This document shows, in pieces, positions 1-58,554 of a DNA stretch of 64,000 nt. Origin of the DNA: Bacteroidota bacterium (GTDB lineage: Bacteria > Bacteroidota > Bacteroidia > UBA8524); NCBI GenBank assembly GCA_016124735.1, contig WGMZ01000005.1, positions 1-64,000 on the forward strand, given 5' to 3'. A program made the position numbers and the translations under genes. Below the pieces are notes generated by a model. It searched no databases. It worked only from the letters and a program-made list of their open reading frames with translations, and was not told where the DNA came from. How positions within the stretch are numbered: position 1 is the stretch's first letter; each line of letters starts with the position of its first letter.

Positions 1-326
1 AGCCAGGCGCCTATTGCTTACGCCAGCATAAGTTCACATCATAGTATGTAAGAAATAGAAAAGCTTCGTGCGGGTGGGCTGGCCAAAATGCGGGCCGCGC
101 GTTGGCGTGATGTTTTTTTTAGGGAGGCCAGATGCAATGGCAGACCGTTAAGAAAAAAACAGAGAGGGGGGTAGCATATTTTGGCCTTGATTTTTTGGTT
201 CGTTTGGAATTTATGCTGAGTGAAGTCGAAGCATCAAGACAAAATGAACATACAATAAGGAAAGAATATAAATAGCAATAGGATTATTCTGAACACGGCG
301 AAGTGGTAATAAAGCGGAGACTCATG
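1..326 (-). repeat. Dispersed intergenic element, copy 1 (runs off the left edge)
   Basis: This gene-free stretch aligns, in reverse orientation, with the 599-bp element at 57956-58554. Its right terminus at 315-326 reads CGGAGACTCATG, preceded by 8 bases and GTGG, which is the inverted form of the family terminus. Bases 121-163 match the complement of about 58135-58177 with only 3 differences in 43, and bases 1-35 match the complement of about 58245-58279. The copy therefore begins left of the window. I see no convincing coding region in 1-426. Confidence 0.8.
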
Positions 327-6709: not shown

Positions 6710-6828
6710 TTGATGCTTCAAGCCACATGCAGGGTTTGACAGAATTGGAAGTAGATATTCAACAGGAAAATTGATTTTTATATTCAAAAACTTTATCTCT
6801 ATATTACGTTCAATTACGTATTTCGAAT

Positions 6829-9800
6829 ATGCGAAAAGTAAGAGGCATTCTCTTTTTATATCTACTCTGTGTTTCTTTTTTCTCTCAGGCTGTCCATTTT
6901 GTAAGCGGAGAAATTTATTGGAAACATGTGGGAAATCGGGTTTTTGATGTTTACGTAGTCTATTACAATGACTGCGCAGGTTATCTGAGCAATTTCTCCA
7001 CTCAGTTGGAGATTGATGGTACCAACGGTTATATCAACAGACCACGAGTAGGACTCCGTCACGATACGATTCGTTATTCACCATCTGCATGTGGCGGTCC
7101 GCTTTGTGCCCCTTATAAGTTAATGATCCGTTCTGAAGGAAGATTTAGGGTCGATCTTTCTCAGGATACAAGTAGTTCCTATACGTTTAAATATTCGGAA
7201 TGTTGCAGGTCCAATGCAATCACTAATGTCGATTTAAGTGGTTCAGTGGCTTTGAATTTATTCGGACGGGTAAATCTTGCTACCACGGATAGTCAGTATT
7301 GGAGCTCTCCTTATTTTATTGGTGACCATCAATTTACCGCTTCAACAGGAGGTATTCACCAGGTTTCTTTCATGGCAGATGATACTGTGGCTGGTATTGA
7401 TTCGATTGCGTATGAATTAATTTCACCTTTAACCGGAACCAATCCAGTACCCTACTATTCGGGCTACAGTTATCAATCGCCACTTAAATATTTGGGTTAT
7501 CCTTATTAAAATAGTGCAGGCTATGGACGAGGTTTTAAATTAGATCAATGGAATGGTGAGTTGGTTTATACCCCAATGCAAAGCAATGAGGTAACCGTCA
7601 CCGCAGTAAAGGTGAAATCATATCGTAAGCGAAATGGCACCTGGTATTTGGCAGGGGAGATAATGCGGGATATCACGCTTGCCACTCAGAATGCTACGAT
7701 CAATAAATTTCCCTATTTCCCAGCCGCGCTGGAGGACATTGTATTCTGCGATACATCAAATACTTACTACGATTTTATTGTTGCTGACTCAAACCTGAAT
7801 GATACACTGAAAGTAGAGTTGATTGGAAAAACCCCAGATTATCAGGTTCAGTATTTGGGCCAAAGTGGCGTAAATCGCTCGTATCGGGTTTATTTCAATT
7901 TAGACTCATCTGAATGGAATAGCAGAGATTATTATCTGATTTTACAGGTGAGTGATGAAAAATGTTCCGGTACTGCGAGAGGTTTGGCTCAACATGGTCT
8001 GAAGCTCAAGTCAACCCTTGATACGACAATTTTTTCACGAGCTGGGCTCAGCCTTGAACGCGTCTGTAACGATTTAAATGCCAGTTTTTCCGGAGTTCCA
8101 TTAATTTATCCATACCTATGGAAGATAAATGGAGAGGAGAAAACGAAGAGGATTCAAACAATCAATTTAATGCAGGATTCATCCTATAATATTCAGTTGT
8201 TTTATGGGAATTCCAGCTGCCATCTGTTCTTAGGCGATACTTTTCAGGCGGACTCTATTTACCATTTTGATGCTTCATTCAGCGGTTTCCCTTCAGCGAC
8301 CTGCCTTGGGCAAAATATAAGTGGTGTTTGGACTGTGAGTGGTGGATTGGATTCCAATTATTACTGGATTCAAAATCAAGGTCAGGATTCGTCTTCCTTT
8401 GAATTGTTGCATGATTCCAACCAATATTATTTGAAGGTCGCAAATGCGGGAGGATGTTCGGCAGACACACTTGTTTTGGTGGACACATTCCCTGAATTAA
8501 AGGTAAATGTGAATACAGAATGGAGTTATTGTTCAGGCAATAGCAATCATTTTTATATTCCTGTTAAAGCAAGTGGGGGACAAGGTTCTTATAAGTATAC
8601 CTGGAATAATGTTGCAGGAACGGACTCGTTTTTCGTGAATTCTGACACAATAGGCAATTTGATTCTTCTGGTAAATGATACAAGCAACTGTTTTATTCTG
8701 GACTCAATTCATATCGATCGAAGACCACGTCCGGATTATCGGGTGAATGGGGAAAAACTGATTTGTACCAATGACTCATTCAGGCTGGAAGCAAGTACCC
8801 ACTTAAATGATTCTTTAGTGAATTATGATTGGGGATTTGGGGTGGTAAGCAATAAACGATTTCGAATCAAGCCAACGGCAGATACAAGTATCGTTTTCCG
8901 GATGATTGATACCGGGTATTGCACTATCATTGATACACTTCAACTTAGATACTATGCAGGATGGAAGACGAAGTTTTCCGATACCCTGAATATCTGCGAT
9001 AATGCATCCGAAAATGTTGACGATGCATTTCAGGGAATTGTCATGAAAGAACGATGGTTCGGTGAGTCAACCGCACAATTTGACTCCGTATATCATATAC
9101 ACCCGGATACTGCCGGCACTAGGGAGATACATCTGTATATTCTGGATTCCGATGGCTGTGAGTTCAAAGATTCATTTTTATTGCACCGAAGGAATTCCCC
9201 CGATTTAGGGCTGAATTCAATCAAAACTACTTGGTGCGAAAATGAAAACGAAATTAATTTGATGGATTCGGTAGTTCAGAAGTATGGATTCTGGATGATT
9301 GATGAAAAGCCGGATAGTGTATTTAATCCATCTGCTTTGCAACCCGGTGATCATTTTCTTGAATACTCTCTGGATTCGGGAATGTGCCACTCCCGATGGG
9401 AAAAATTGGTTCGAATCCGTTCATTGCCACAGGCCAATATTATTCTGACCAATGCAATGGGACAGGCACCTTTAAAAGTTGATTTTGACGTGGCAATATG
9501 GGCAGATACTACCTATTCTTTTTACTGGGATTTTGGAGCGGGTAAAACGGGTGATTCAAGTACTGTTTTAGATCCATCTTATACCTATACATCTATGGGT
9601 TATTTCAGCCCCCGGTTTCATCTGGTTACTCCCTATTGCCTGAATCAAATTTCTTTGGACTCTGAAGTATATGTGACAGGATATGTTGGCTTAAATGAAA
9701 TTGCGGAAGCCAGGGTTTATCCGAATCCCGGGAACGGATACTATAGTCTCGAGAGCCATCATCCGGATCTAACAATTCTTGGCATTTATTCCGCTTCGGG

Positions 9801-20910: not shown

Positions 20911-21213
20911 CATAAGTCTTCCCCATTGAACCACTAGCTCGCTTTATGGCTGAAGCCAAAGGTTTCAGTAGTTGGTAGAATATCCTCGCCGAAGTTCGAG
21001 TGCTGAGAACGAAGAGCGGAATATGATTTTAACGCAGTAAGGATTATGAAAAAATTCATCGAGTGGCGGGTAGCCTCCCAATAAACTTCGGGACGGAAGC
21101 GAGGTGTACATGGCTGAAGCCTGATAAATAAGAAATCCAAAACCAGGATGCGGGAGGGACTGGATATAAGTCTTTTGTAAAAACGCATGGTGGTATCTAA
21201 TCAGAAACTCATG
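20911..21213 (-). repeat. Dispersed intergenic element, copy 2, internally deleted
   Basis: 303 bp. The left terminus is CATAAGTCTTCC + 8 bases + CCAC (20911-20934). The right terminus is GTGG + 8 bases + CAGAAACTCATG (21190-21213). The interior at about 21020-21180 matches the complement of 58220-58375, but with a 1-base indel, so no reading frame is kept. The conserved core seen in copies 1 and 4 is missing. The right end overlaps the mnmD stop codon (21209-21211). No gene was found between 20836 and 21208. Confidence 0.8.
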
Positions 21214-32163: not shown

Positions 32164-32203
32164 GTGGGGCGCAATTTACACTTTCCGGCATTTGCATAAA
32201 AGA

Positions 32204-32229
32204 AAAGGCCACCGCCAGGGGTGGCCTTT
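32204..32229 (-). terminator. Terminator of the second LruC gene
   Basis: A perfect 10-bp stem (AAAGGCCACC / GGTGGCCTTT) with a 6-base loop, followed on the minus strand by TTCTTTT. It lies 22 bases after the LruC stop. Confidence 0.85.
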
Positions 32230-32250
32230 AACTGCATCTATAAATCTGAG

Positions 32251-34440
32251 TTAGTATATTTTCGATGCGTTGCGGTATCCCGAAAGATCCGAGTACCAAT
32301 TTGTATAATTAACTCCATCGCTGCTTGCCCAGCTGATAAAGTAGTTATAGGCGTCACTGATTGATTCTTTTTCCGCCGGATAAGCAAAGCTTACTGGCAC
32401 TTCAATTACAAATGGAAGGTTATTGGCTGTTTTGTAATACCGTCCTATGCTCGGGTCGGAATTGTCGTTTTTCGTTCCAAATAACTGAGAATTCGCCAGG
32501 GAAGTCGGAGTCATATTTGGATGGTGAATTTCTGTGCCGCGGGTTCCGTTTACAAAAATAAAGGGGTTGAATTTTGCCTGGGTCAGCTTGCTGGAAGCTA
32601 TTGGATTCGTGAAGCTGACATGCAGGTTTAAGGTATCAAAGGTACCCGTAGAATTGCCTTTGATCGTATTGAAAAAAGAGCCTCCATTGCGGTGAATAAG
32701 AGGTTCCGGACTATCGTATACAATTACAACGGCTTTGGTTTGTCCGGATTCAGTCTTGTTCGAATTCAGTGAAATCAAGCTTTTGCTTAACTGTTGACCG
32801 CTAATGTTGCTAATATCCGTTGGGACTAAATCATCCAGCTGAACACCGAATCCGTTGTCGTAGGTGGCACCAATGGCGCGCACGAGGTAAGTGGTATAGA
32901 ATTCCACCACATTGTTTGAGGCATTCAATACCTGTTTTGTGCGGTAGGAGAGTACAAGGTCGTTGAAATCATAATCTCCCTGCGATGGCCACAAATCCTC
33001 AAAACCAAAAGTGGCAAAGGTTGAAGCACTTGGGTAGTAGCTGTTGTATGCGCGAGTAGAATCATTCGGATAGTCATCCTGTGCATCAGCTACGCCATCA
33101 CCATCGGTATCGGTAATTGTTGCTGTACCGAAGCCTTCCGGATTGCATGCGGTGGTCGCGATATAATTATTGCAAGTGGCAGCTGCCGGACTATTGAAAG
33201 TTCCATTATTGGTTTCAATGCCATTGGTATCGCAGAATTCCATATTTCCGCTCATTTGTCCGCCCCCGTTAAAGGTCGTGTTTTGAGTAACTTTTACCGT
33301 TCCTAAGCCGGAATTGCTTGCGCCATTGATGCTTCCGTTGATGGTGATGTTTTTGGTGCTGAACAATGCGCCACTGTAAATGTAATGGGTGGAACCGCCA
33401 TTGATACTGGCAGTAGCGTCGCATTTCAAATAACCGTAGTTGTAAACCGATCCGTTGTTGTTGTAATTCCCAACGGAAATCAGCTGACAGTTGTTGTAAG
33501 TTACAGACCCACCGTTGGGCTGAAACATGCCATTGACAAAGATTTTATTGTTGTTGGTCAGTGTCTTGTTATTATTCAGGTTGGTTTTTACATAGATCTC
33601 ACCATTGTTGGTCATGTAGTTATTTCCATTGTTGTTGATACTCAAATCGCCATTTACGGACATTTTACCATTGTTTACAAGCGTACCTGCAACGGAAATA
33701 GACGCTGTGAACTTCAAACTGTCTGAATAGTTCTCTACTCTCGCACCGGCATTGTTAAAGTTGATGTTTCCTACCGTTACGATCGAATTCTCCAGGAAGT
33801 ATATTTTGGAAGAGGAGCTATTTAATGTGATACCGCTGATACTGGCATTACCGCAAAAACGTACCGTTGCACCTGCTCCAACATTGATGCTTCCATTGAA
33901 GCTGCCGGTCATGCAGTATGTACCACCGTTAAGGTTCAATGTGCCACCACTGTAATTGTTATAGGTTTGGGTACAGCCGGTACTGCAATTAAGTCCGGAT
34001 CCTGGTTTTGTTTTAAGCTGAATAACCGGCGATTGGTTGAAGTTGGCCGCAATATAATCGGCCGCTTTTACCCGCTGCAATTCCCGCGCACCATTGGAAA
34101 GAACTTTTTCGATATAGATATCAGTCAGCGCGGAAAGAATACGAAAGCTCATCTCATAATCTTCTCCCACTTTTGTGAGGCCTGATGTAATGACATGGGC
34201 GATGGTAGGGAAGTCGTCGTAAATATTGATACGAACTACTTCACCGGCGAAATTGCCATTCGTTGTATGAAACTTCATGCGAATGTCGCGGGTGGATTTG
34301 AAATTAAAGTTATCCGAAACTCTCAAATCAAAAATGCTGGTAACTGCTGTCGGTTCTGTCGTTGCCGGTTTTTCTTTTTTACATGCAGTCATTGCAATTA
34401 GGAATACTGCAACTGGAAGGAGGAAAAATTTTGTTTTCAT
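32251..34440 (-). CDS. LruC-domain (DUF4842) lipoprotein, paralogue B
   Basis: 729 aa. The lipobox is IAMTAC (Cys near residue 20). It then has a short N-terminal beta domain, followed from about 150 to 430 by an Asn/Gly-rich region of short repeats of NNG- and VNGDLSINN-type, as in a right-handed beta-helix. Next is a calcium-binding thrombospondin type 3-like loop, DTDGDGVADAQDDYPNDS, and the LruC domain with FATFGFEDLWPSQGDYDFNDLVLSYR. The protein is probably exposed at the outer membrane and Ca2+-stabilised; its role is unknown. It is a tandem paralogue of the next gene with the same architecture throughout. Confidence 0.88.
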   Translation of the reverse strand: MKTKFFLLPVAVFLIAMTACKKEKPATTEPTAVTSIFDLRVSDNFNFKSTRDIRMKFHTTNGNFAGEVVRINIYDDFPTIAHVITSGLTKVGEDYEMSFRILSALTDIYIEKVLSNGARELQRVKAADYIAANFNQSPVIQLKTKPGSGLNCSTGCTQTYNNYSGGTLNLNGGTYCMTGSFNGSINVGAGATVRFCGNASISGITLNSSSSKIYFLENSIVTVGNINFNNAGARVENYSDSLKFTASISVAGTLVNNGKMSVNGDLSINNNGNNYMTNNGEIYVKTNLNNNKTLTNNNKIFVNGMFQPNGGSVTYNNCQLISVGNYNNNGSVYNYGYLKCDATASINGGSTHYIYSGALFSTKNITINGSINGASNSGLGTVKVTQNTTFNGGGQMSGNMEFCDTNGIETNNGTFNSPAAATCNNYIATTACNPEGFGTATITDTDGDGVADAQDDYPNDSTRAYNSYYPSASTFATFGFEDLWPSQGDYDFNDLVLSYRTKQVLNASNNVVEFYTTYLVRAIGATYDNGFGVQLDDLVPTDISNISGQQLSKSLISLNSNKTESGQTKAVVIVYDSPEPLIHRNGGSFFNTIKGNSTGTFDTLNLHVSFTNPIASSKLTQAKFNPFIFVNGTRGTEIHHPNMTPTSLANSQLFGTKNDNSDPSIGRYYKTANNLPFVIEVPVSFAYPAEKESISDAYNYFISWASSDGVNYTNWYSDLSGYRNASKIY

Positions 34441-34580
34441 TTTGGTATAGTTGATTAATCAAGCGAGGAGCCAAATTTGGAATACAGCATTGGCGCATCT
34501 TTTATGCGATGTTGAGGTGATTCATTGTTTACTATTTTGGAAAAGATTCCAATTATTGGAATTCAATTACGAATTTACGT

Positions 34581-34608
34581 AAAAGAAAAAGCCACCGCTA
34601 TGGGTGGC
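34581..34608 (-). terminator. Terminator of the first LruC gene
   Basis: Stem GCCACC / GGTGGC (34591-34608) around loop GCTATG, followed on the minus strand by TTTTTCTTTT. It closely resembles the terminator at 32204-32229, as expected if gene and terminator were duplicated together. Confidence 0.85.
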
Positions 34609-34633
34609 CTTTTCTTCGTTCAATAAATCTCGG

Positions 34634-36835
34634 TTAATATATTTTCGAGGCAGTGCGGTATCCTGATAGGTTATCGTACCAATTGGTGTAATTGGATCCG
34701 CCACTTACCGCCCAGCTAATGAAATAATTGTAGGCATCGCTGATGGATTCCTTTTCTGCCGGGTAATCAAAGTTCGCAGGAATTTCAATTACAAATGGCA
34801 GATTATTGCTTGTTTTATAATAGCGTCCCTGGGATGGGTTCGAGCTGTCGTCTTTGGTTCCCAGCAATTGGGTATTGGCCTTGTCAGTTGGAACCATGTT
34901 GGGTAAGTGAACTTCTGTGCCGCGTGTTCCGTTTACAAAGATGAACGGATTGATTTTCGCCTGAGTAACTTTAGAAGCGGCAACTGGAGAAGTAAACTGA
35001 ACGTATAAAGTAGTGGTATCTGAAGTTCCGGTACCATTTGTTTTGATGGTATTGAACATGGATCCACCTACCCGGTTAATCAATGGTTCTGGTGAATCGT
35101 ATACAATAATTACAGCTTTGGTTTGTCCGCTTTCTGTTTTGTTTCCATTCAGAGAAATCAAACTTTTGGTGAGGCTTTGACCACTTACCGTATTTACGTC
35201 GCTAGGGTTCAAATCATCGAACTGGAAGCCAAAACCGTTGTCGTAGGTAGCGCCAATGGCTCGCACAATATAGGTAGTGTACATTTCCACCACATTGTTT
35301 GCTGCGTTAGATACCTTTTTTACACGGTATCCCAATATCAGGTCATTGAAATCATAGTCTCCCTGTGAAGGCCACAAATCCTCGTATCCTATGGTTGCAA
35401 AACCAGTAGCATTTGGATAATAGCTGTTGTAGGCCCGGGTCGAATCGTTCGGGTAATCATCCAGGTTATCAGCTACACCATCGCCATCGGAGTCAATAAT
35501 GGTTGGAGAACCAAAACCTTCGGGATTACAAGCACTGGTTGCAATATAGTTGCTACAGGAAATAGCTGCAGGCGTTGAGATGGTTCCGTTATTGGTGTTC
35601 ACACCGGAACTATCGCAGAGTTCCACATTGCCAGAGAGAACTCCTGAGCCATTGATGGTTGTTACGTCGGCCACTTTAACAGTTCCTAAGCCACTGCTGC
35701 TTGGTCCGTTAATCGTACCATTGATGGTAATATCGTGCGTACTTAACAGGGCATCGGCATAGTTATAAAAAGTTTTAGAACCGTTTATTTTAGATTCGTC
35801 GTAACATTTAACGTAACCATAATTATTAAAGGTTCCATTCATCTCAAAATTGTCGACTGAATAAATCTGACAGTAATTGTAAGTGGTTGAAGTGCCGTTA
35901 GGCTTTAATTTGCCATTTACGAAAATATAGTTGTTGTTCGTGAGCATTTCATTGTTGTTCAAGTTATGGCTCACGTAAATCGACCCGTTATTTATAAAAT
36001 TCGGAGCTCCATTATTGATGTCCAAATCACCATCAACGCTCATTTTTCCATTATTGGTAAATGAACCTCCCACACTGAATCCGGAACTGAAATGCAAGCT
36101 GTCAGAGTAATTTAAGATGGATGCATTGCTGGTGTTCAGGTTTGCATTGTTTACTGTAACGATACTGTTTTCCAAAAAATAAATTGTGGAGGAGTTATTA
36201 CTTCCACCATTCAGATTGATGTTTCCGATACTAGCATTTCCACAAATACGAACGGTAACTGATCCATTCAGAGTCAGGTTACCTGAAAAGGAACCGGTAA
36301 GACAAACAACCCCGGATCCACTCAGGCTTAAGTTACCATTGTGGTTATTATAAGATGTGGAACAACCGGTATTGCAATTCAAACCAGATCCGGGTTGACC
36401 TTTCATGGTTAACAAGGGGGGCTGGTTATTGAAGTTCGCTGAAATATAATTTGCTGATGAGATGCGCTGCAATTCGCGGGCACCGGTAGATGCCACTTTT
36501 TCAATGTACAGGTACTGCAATGCGGACGGAATACGGAATTGCAATGGCAGTTCATTTCCCACTTCCACGATTCCTGATGTAATTAGGTGGGCAATGGTAG
36601 GGAAATCATCGTATACGTTGATACGGTAAATTTCACCTGGATAATTTCCTTGTTGTACCATGACACGCATTCCGATGTCGCGGGTAGACTTGAAATTGAA
36701 GTCGTCACTCACCTTCAAGTCAAAGATACTTGTTGGGAGAACTGCAGGATCTTGCTTTTGAGCTACTTCTTTTTTACAAGCACTGATGCTTAAGAGGAAG
36801 GCAATTCCCGCTGTGAATAAAATTTTCGTTTTCAT
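34634..36835 (-). CDS. LruC-domain (DUF4842) lipoprotein, paralogue A
   Basis: 733 aa from the ATG at 36835 (an upstream in-frame start adds four residues). The lipobox is LSISAC (Cys near 20). The order matches paralogue B: SIFDLKVSDDFNFKSTRDI domain, Asn-rich beta-helix-like repeats (about 155-440), DSDGDGVADNLDDYPNDS calcium loop, then the LruC domain with IGYEDLWPSQGDYDFNDLILGYR. A GGAGG-like sequence lies about 40 bases before the ATG, too far to act as a ribosome-binding site. The gene pair with separate terminators suggests independent expression. Confidence 0.88.
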   Translation of the reverse strand: MKTKILFTAGIAFLLSISACKKEVAQKQDPAVLPTSIFDLKVSDDFNFKSTRDIGMRVMVQQGNYPGEIYRINVYDDFPTIAHLITSGIVEVGNELPLQFRIPSALQYLYIEKVASTGARELQRISSANYISANFNNQPPLLTMKGQPGSGLNCNTGCSTSYNNHNGNLSLSGSGVVCLTGSFSGNLTLNGSVTVRICGNASIGNINLNGGSNNSSTIYFLENSIVTVNNANLNTSNASILNYSDSLHFSSGFSVGGSFTNNGKMSVDGDLDINNGAPNFINNGSIYVSHNLNNNEMLTNNNYIFVNGKLKPNGTSTTYNYCQIYSVDNFEMNGTFNNYGYVKCYDESKINGSKTFYNYADALLSTHDITINGTINGPSSSGLGTVKVADVTTINGSGVLSGNVELCDSSGVNTNNGTISTPAAISCSNYIATSACNPEGFGSPTIIDSDGDGVADNLDDYPNDSTRAYNSYYPNATGFATIGYEDLWPSQGDYDFNDLILGYRVKKVSNAANNVVEMYTTYIVRAIGATYDNGFGFQFDDLNPSDVNTVSGQSLTKSLISLNGNKTESGQTKAVIIVYDSPEPLINRVGGSMFNTIKTNGTGTSDTTTLYVQFTSPVAASKVTQAKINPFIFVNGTRGTEVHLPNMVPTDKANTQLLGTKDDSSNPSQGRYYKTSNNLPFVIEIPANFDYPAEKESISDAYNYFISWAVSGGSNYTNWYDNLSGYRTASKIY

Positions 36836-46630: not shown

Positions 46631-46845
46631 CATGAGTCTCCATTTTGATACCATCATGGATTTTTGCGAAGGATTCATATCCCAAAATTTTAAATAGAAT
46701 CTGATTCAATCCTTGATTTATTCATGTTCATTTTGCTCGCCCAAATTTTCAATATTTTATCCCGTCATCCTTCGCTCTCAGCTCTCGGCGTCGCCATTGG
46801 CGTCAGCCATCAAGTCAGTTACTGATTAATAAACGCAGATTCATG
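46631..46845 (+). repeat. Dispersed intergenic element, copy 3, shortest form
   Basis: 215 bp between convergent genes, filling almost the whole gap (46626-46849). The left terminus is CATGAGTCTCCA + TTTTGATA + CCAT. The right terminus is CGCAGATTCATG preceded by 8 bases (10 of 12 matches). The left ~110 bp match 57956-58065, and the right ~70 bp match the left end of copy 2 (20928-20960 and on). The core and the 58.2-58.4 kb block are absent. No coding potential is seen. Confidence 0.75.
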
Positions 46846-57955: not shown

Positions 57956-58554
57956 CATGAGTCACCGTTTTGATACCACCATGAATTTTTAGGATTTATG
58001 TCCAAAAGTTTTAATTAGAATCTGACGGCTCAACCCTTGAATCATTCATGTTCATTTTACCTTGACACTTTGACATTGCTCAATGTAAATTCAAAACGAA
58101 CCAAAAATCAGGGCCAAAATAAGTTTCCTCGCTTTCTATTTTTTTCTTAACGGTCGGCCATTGCATCTGGTCTCCCTAAAAATCGTCACGCTAACCTGCT
58201 GCCTGTATTTTCGCAAGCCCCTTCCATATCCTGTTTTTGGATCTCTACTCTATCTGGCGCCAGTTATTTGCGCCTGGCTTCCGTCCAGAAATCTATCGGG
58301 AAGGGTACCTGCCGCTCAATGAGTTTTTTCGTAATCCTTGCTGCATTCAAATCATATTTCGCTCTTCGCATTTTTCTTCTGCGAAGCCGTTGAAGGCAAG
58401 CGCGTTTTTTTTTGTTTCTTTTTATTCATGATTGTCAGCTTTTAATTGGCATTTATGAATGCTTGGCATATTTCTATAAAAGAAAGAAAAAGAAGATTGA
58501 AACTCTGTTTTTGGCAAATAGTCCAGGTTAGTGGCAAACTAGCGGAGACTCATG
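57956..58554 (+). repeat. Dispersed intergenic element, copy 4, longest complete copy
   Basis: 599 bp between convergent pyrB and the GT-C-like gene; it holds no convincing gene. The left terminus is CATGAGTCACCG + 8 bases + CCAC. The right terminus, read inward, is CATGAGTCTCCG + 8 bases + CCAC. Blocks shared with other copies: 57956-58065 (copy 3 left end), 58135-58177 (core, copy 1) and 58220-58375 (copies 1 and 2). No clean target-site duplication is seen. Confidence 0.85.

Follow-up and report, generated by a model that had tools for sequence, protein, structure and literature searches.

The window analysed here is a stretch of 64,000 nucleotides (G000:C43:1-64000) from a draft genome of 3.11 Mb in 53 contigs. 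Base 1 of the window is also base 1 of its contig, and a copy of a dispersed, non-autonomous element is truncated at that point. This copy contains, at 121-163, a 43-mer that the initial annotation had singled out as a conserved core. The members of the repeat family and their ends in the window are the following:

1-326, plus strand: copy A of the non-autonomous element, its 5′ part lost at the contig start, ending with the right terminal inverted repeat (43 genome matches)
312-326, minus strand: terminal inverted repeat (TIR) CATGAGTCTCCGCTT, whose pattern has 57 genome hits against 5 for the reversed control
21178-21213, minus strand: relic of an element end, TIR-like with two mismatches, without the core
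46631-46845, no strand assigned: 215-bp element with the same TIR type at both ends, without the core
57956-58554, minus strand: copy B, 599 bp, an old and diverged copy that has both TIRs and carries the 43-mer as the complement of 58135-58177

The core had been described as far more conserved than its surroundings. Bases 121-163 and the complement of 58135-58177 are indeed identical at 40 of 43 positions without gaps (3 of 43 differ), and the flanks of the two copies are more diverged, with indels and with 151 of the 202 other aligned columns identical (51 different). A scan statistic that allows for the choice of window gives P = 0.035 for the best 43-column window of copy A against copy B, and the contrast drawn from these two copies alone is modest. 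The core was also said to be absent from two further copies, probably the short TIR-bounded element at 46631-46845 and the end relic at 21178-21213, and both do lack it. Two of the three differences between A and B fall in the stem of a hairpin, P2a, described below: relative to the family consensus, A and B have each acquired a different stem-breaking change, so both are decaying.

Other repeats were noticed along the way. Adjacent long ORFs at 32190-32931 and 34573-35314 of the window share stretches that are 71-74% identical (tandem paralogues), and a GGCCACC...GGTGGCC hairpin lies near each of them. Three contig ends (G000:C14:140, C32:14035 and C42:81165) have in common a second IS-like element with the TIR CATGACTGTCCGTTT, of which the first ~90 bp are the same; it seems to be a recent repeat at which the assembly broke.

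Searches of the whole genome matched the right half of the repeat family 43 times and its left half 48 times, copies and fragments taken together. About 40 copies and fragments of a non-autonomous element of ~500 bp occur in the genome, the full copies measuring about 490-550 bp. Aligned copies begin with CATGTGTATCCGTTTATTTCCC and end with AAGCGGAGACTCATG, imperfect TIRs whose ends resemble CATGwGTmTCCG. At 8 of 12 bounded copies, 7 or 8 of the 8 flanking bases match, against 0 of 132 mixed control pairs; examples of these 8-bp target duplications (TSD) are tattactt, acaaaagt, ttttttat and aaaataaa. One insertion site has an orthologous spacer without the element in G004, a genome of the same genus. 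The element is short, non-coding and multicopy, with TIRs and a TSD, and so has the features of a MITE.

A partner for this MITE was found in the same genome, at G000:C12:22144-23147. This IS of 1,004 bp has the same TIRs as the MITE (CATGAGTCTCCG is common to both) and the 8-bp TSD aaatccat, and its transposase matches Pfam DDE_Tnp_IS1595 (2e-16), a zinc ribbon and NCBIfam IS1595 (1.4e-44). The IS1595 family usually makes 8-bp target duplications, and its features include a DDE_Tnp_IS1595 domain and an N-terminal zinc ribbon (PMC8101967), both of which are present in the transposase at L244:801-1736; A/T-rich 8-bp repeats have been described for ISApl4 (PMC12561309). An IS1595 of another genome, G001 (L269), has a similar TIR. 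Taken together, the shared TIRs, the 8-bp TSDs, the IS1595 transposase and the empty site in G004 indicate a non-autonomous element that is most likely moved by an IS1595-type transposase. The MITE is not a deletion derivative of the partner IS, because its interior does not match the IS: MITE queries gave no match to it in DNA searches of the genome, and the non-coding ends of the IS are short (about 56 and 12 bp). Beyond this genome, strict pairs of TIR and TSD were not found for most copies, TIR and TSD could be read by eye from the aligned copies of G079, and an IS1595 transposase had no match in 6 of 14 other genomes tested, several of the six being multi-copy. Mobilisation of the IS1595 type is therefore supported for the source genome and G079 only. 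The MITE resembles IS1595 elements and the MITEs derived from them in sharing TIRs with an IS1595-type element of its own genome, in its A/T-rich 8-bp TSDs and in being small, non-coding and multicopy; unlike them, it has an interior without detectable DNA similarity to the IS and more conserved than the ends, and its fold also exists outside such elements.

Conservation along the element was profiled over 22 aligned copies of the source genome. An element in plain decay had been expected to lose all parts equally, and even conservation among the copies is not what we see. Mean pairwise identity is 0.969 in the 43-mer, 0.939 and 0.938 in its direct neighbours, 0.947 in a second interior block around the left hairpin, which holds the highest 43-column window (0.973), and 0.729 and 0.698 at the two ends. 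The unevenness is real and not random decay. The 43-bp core is thus a peak of conservation, as claimed, but has no sharp edges: it is the crest of a block of ~150 bp and one of two crests. Such a gradient, with the interior better preserved than the ends, runs opposite to that expected of a plain MITE, and the suggestion that the core is the recent remnant of a mobile-element end fails on the same profile, since the 43-mer is interior and the true ends are the least conserved parts.

The conserved block is predicted to fold, with a consensus fold eight standard deviations below that of shuffled sequences (z = -8.0). The structural features of copy A, all on the plus strand, are these:

81-91, plus strand: 5′ arm GGCCAAAATGC of P1, a long-range helix (register-locked complementarity across Bacteroidia)
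112-120, plus strand: 5′ strand of P2, a T-run with predicted partner 150-160
121-163, plus strand: the 43-mer, formed by hairpin P2a (122-146, with loop AGATGCAAT at 130-138) and the A-run strand of P2 (150-160)
174-186, plus strand: 3′ arm GCATATTTTGGCC of P1, with a U-rich run directly after it (register-locked complementarity; sequence)
186-191, plus strand: CTTGAT, the 5′ strand of a pseudoknot
191-196, plus strand: T6 run (U-tract) between P1 and P3, near-invariant in class-wide alignments
198-205, plus strand: 5′ strand GTTCGTTT of hairpin P3 (P3 covariation)
206-232, plus strand: extra palindromic module of the ATGCTGAGTGAAGTCGAAGCAT type within the P3 loop, in about half of the copies
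233-238, plus strand: ATCAAG in the P3 loop, the 3′ strand of the pseudoknot
242-249, plus strand: 3′ strand AAATGAAC of hairpin P3 (P3 covariation)

P2a is a hairpin with the loop GATGCAA, enclosed by the T-run/A-run helix P2. In the other genus of the bacterial family (G001, L062) the loop GATGCAA is kept at this place and the stem is different yet still paired. The architecture shared more widely comprises P1, with a 3′ arm that extends to the C of CTTGAT, then CTTGAT itself, the T-run and P3, whose loop motif ATCAAG is complementary to CTTGAT. A check for compensatory changes, as had been proposed, bears these helices out, their pairs being preserved by such changes. Over 102 aligned matches, with related sequences included in the counts, P3 has a covariation score of 0.244, compared with 0.069 for shuffled and no more than 0.082 for slid alignments. 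A second pair count, used for its pseudoknot rows alone because its P3 string was one column out, shows U-A at the last pair of the pseudoknot in 61 sequences, A-U in 8, C-G in 2 and another or no pairing in 5. The arms of P1 are A/T-rich and an unrestricted helix test is individually weak; the register-locked version is decisive: of 60 distinct copies, 29 have P1 at its fixed register, where swapping the upstream regions between genomes leads one to expect 5.0, and the helices of the register-locked copies have about 20 different sequences. G.T cells in P3 outnumber A.C cells by 21 to 5, which favours the model strand as the folded one.

Modules are exchanged within this framework. In the aligned copies, alternative hairpins swap at fixed places of the element: around alignment columns ~258-312 of the own-genome copies, two unrelated hairpins (the ATTTTCTTCAAACTC... 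and ATCCCGCACGTGCGGGAT types) interchange at one place, and the palindromic module TTTATGCTGAGCGAAGTCGAAGCAT within the P3 loop occurs at 206-232 of the window and in L002, L003, L004, L006, L007, L009 and L011 and is missing elsewhere.

The fold extends well beyond the source genome. A search with the 177-nt core gave matches in 100 of 395 Bacteroidia genomes, mostly to the 3′ part, and a covariance model of that part detected the 3′ module in 65 of the 149 Bacteroidia genomes sampled; some of these have at least 37 copies of it, others tandem arrays. In a 257-Gb collection of about 85,000 species genomes, the exact pattern occurs in 66 stretches, all from Bacteroidota; it had no match in viral contigs, and a viral origin was rejected on that ground. 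The search of 395 Bacteroidia genomes found no 43-mer beyond this bacterial family. The tandem arrays of the P3 module, with a spacing of about 233 to 386 bp, are those of L207 (G082), L155 (G072) and L117 (a Persicobacter plasmid). At L136, L142, L146 and L214, P3 modules form outward-facing pairs on opposite strands, which suggests elements bounded on both sides by pseudoknotted hairpins; in the G079 elements, the left hairpin also has a loop-flank pairing of its own.

The position of the module relative to genes was determined with simple ORF calls around the copies. In the named genomes it is mostly found downstream of a same-strand gene (++ 36, +- 19, -- 7, -+ 2), and over all class loci the placement is 47/32/15/4 against 46/32/41/29 for other gaps; the genes upstream are of many kinds. 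The young copies of the source genome have no sense bias (++ 4, -- 8), and because of this the element is, in that genome, probably mostly a MITE passenger.

Four pairs of loci with orthologous neighbours, in different species or genera, share the element; the sites include what we take, from the sequences, to be trpE-trpG and trpB-trpA, the latter for example in Jejuia. The orthologue search used the exact P3 pattern, so P3 identity is given by construction and only the 120 columns ahead of P3, the element body, count as evidence: of the 12 windows of 40 columns, 11 have identities of 0.85-0.97, against mostly 0.15-0.6 for the adjoining spacer and mostly 0.6-0.9 for flanking coding DNA. In seven sequences from orthologous sites a hairpin tip is swapped for different stems with pairing intact, i.e., by wholesale compensatory changes.

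Comparison with known RNAs brought no counterpart. Rfam 15 covariance models at the gathering score had no match over the element in the window, nor was there a significant match over the element at nine other loci with lax thresholds; tRNA or tmRNA was rejected, none being found, and we found no match to the element by sequence in the literature library searched. Flavo-1 (Rfam RF01705) is likewise a Bacteroidota-specific candidate structured RNA in spacers; its model does not match our element, which differs in sequence and place and has P1, the U-tract and the pseudoknotted hairpin. Both occur between trpE and trpG at one Algibacter locus (L305), Flavo-1 at 6774-6860 and, about 100 bp downstream of it, our element at 6959-7131. 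A Bacteroid-trp leader lies further upstream of this Flavo-1 (L305:5193-5317), and structured elements seem to accumulate in the Algibacter trp operon.

We consider it probable that the repeat is an RNA element that is borne by a MITE and transcribed as part of a 3′ end or an intercistronic region. The copies, their ends, the TSDs, the partner IS, the covariation, the distribution, the sense bias and the orthologous retention on which this reading is based are supported by the data; from them we infer transposition in trans, transcription and an effect on mRNA. The repeat would be a MITE-like DNA transposon of ~500 bp, mobilised in trans by an IS1595-type transposase, and its interior a structured RNA-type element that was captured by such a MITE and then amplified. 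The 3′ module (P1, U-tract and P3 with its 6-nt loop pairing with CTTGAT) would be the old part, widespread in Bacteroidota, and the 43-mer a P2/P2a hairpin placed inside P1, so far only in this bacterial family. Once transcribed, the module may act at the 3′ end of or between cistrons, where P1, the U-tract and the pseudoknotted hairpin would set transcript ends or lifetime. Among the roles first proposed for the core, the functional part of a small RNA comes closest, in that the block folds and the core pairs co-vary between genera; a free small RNA is not what we recognise, and the element looks rather like one of a 3′ UTR or an intercistronic region.

As to how it might work, P1 followed by UUGAUUUUUU resembles an intrinsic terminator, which is speculation. 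Compact versions fold well, yet P1, in contrast to a standard terminator, is rich in A/T and frequently extends over more than 100 nt, and a pure terminator does not need the conserved P3 beyond the U-tract. Equally speculative is a U.A-U triple helix made by the T-run, which lies next to the invariant U4/A4 of P3. An invariant T-run so close to a stem of this kind recalls the triple-helix pseudoknots of telomerase RNA and of the ENE type, which combine a U-rich loop with an A-U stem, although the linker geometry differs.

Alternatively, this could be a plain MITE, its interior conserved through youth or recombinational homogenisation and its palindromes perfected by template switching at quasi-palindromes and not by selection. 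The young copies, their lack of sense bias in the source genome, the exchange of alternative hairpin modules at fixed places and the decayed stems of the window copies would all fit. However, in the same copies the ends are far less conserved than the interior, interleaved and long-range pairs co-vary across genera, and other genomes show sense bias and locus-specific vertical retention, all of which make this explanation unlikely.

Rather improbable in our judgement is an element that works as single-stranded DNA, with loop-to-flank hairpins that would be targets of an HUH nuclease (of the REP/RAYT or the IS200/IS605 type) or would act at replication forks. Y1 transposases are present in 19 of 20 genomes tested, some elements (L136, L142, L146, L214) have outward-facing hairpins at both ends and G082 has tandem arrays; but Y1 genes are equally present in repeat-free genomes and are not flanked by the repeat, and a RAYT/REP system was rejected for that reason. 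The 8-bp TSDs and TIRs of the source genome point instead to a DDE transposase, and sense bias relative to genes is not expected of such an element. REP/BIME units with RAYT are also dispersed hairpins in spacers, often near gene 3′ ends, whereas our element has no RAYT gene association and has loop-flank pairing and a long-range P1. At L362 (G102), the region of a Y1 (RAYT-like) gene has hairpins unrelated to ours, among them AACGGATTTTAATTCGTT, which may belong to a REP type not yet described.

A double-stranded protein-binding site with CTTGAT...ATCAAG as inverted half-sites, akin to the protein-binding site first suggested for the core, is very improbable: high conservation and the dyad symmetry of CTTGAT/ATCAAG would suit it, and dyad half-sites also tend to keep complementary changes, but it leaves co-varying, partly interleaved helices unexplained, stem and P1 sequences vary freely with pairing kept, G.T cells exceed A.C cells and the 43-mer was found in one bacterial family only among the 395 Bacteroidia genomes searched.

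Returning to the RNA element carried by a MITE, a bolder version, which we hold only tentatively and think rather doubtful, is that it represents a Bacteroidota-wide, dispersed class of 3′-UTR or intercistronic RNAs, made up of a closing helix with fast turnover, a U-tract and a pseudoknot between loop and flank, perhaps in the form of a U.A-U triple helix; this class would set mRNA ends or lifetimes in operons such as trp and would have spread at least partly via capture by IS1595-type MITEs. If true, a phylum-wide post-transcriptional element would have been missed by RNA libraries, being dispersed, A/T-rich and pseudoknotted, and transposons could deliver ready-made RNA structures beside genes. 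Genomes with dozens of near-identical copies permit a direct test of an effect on transcript ends or stability.
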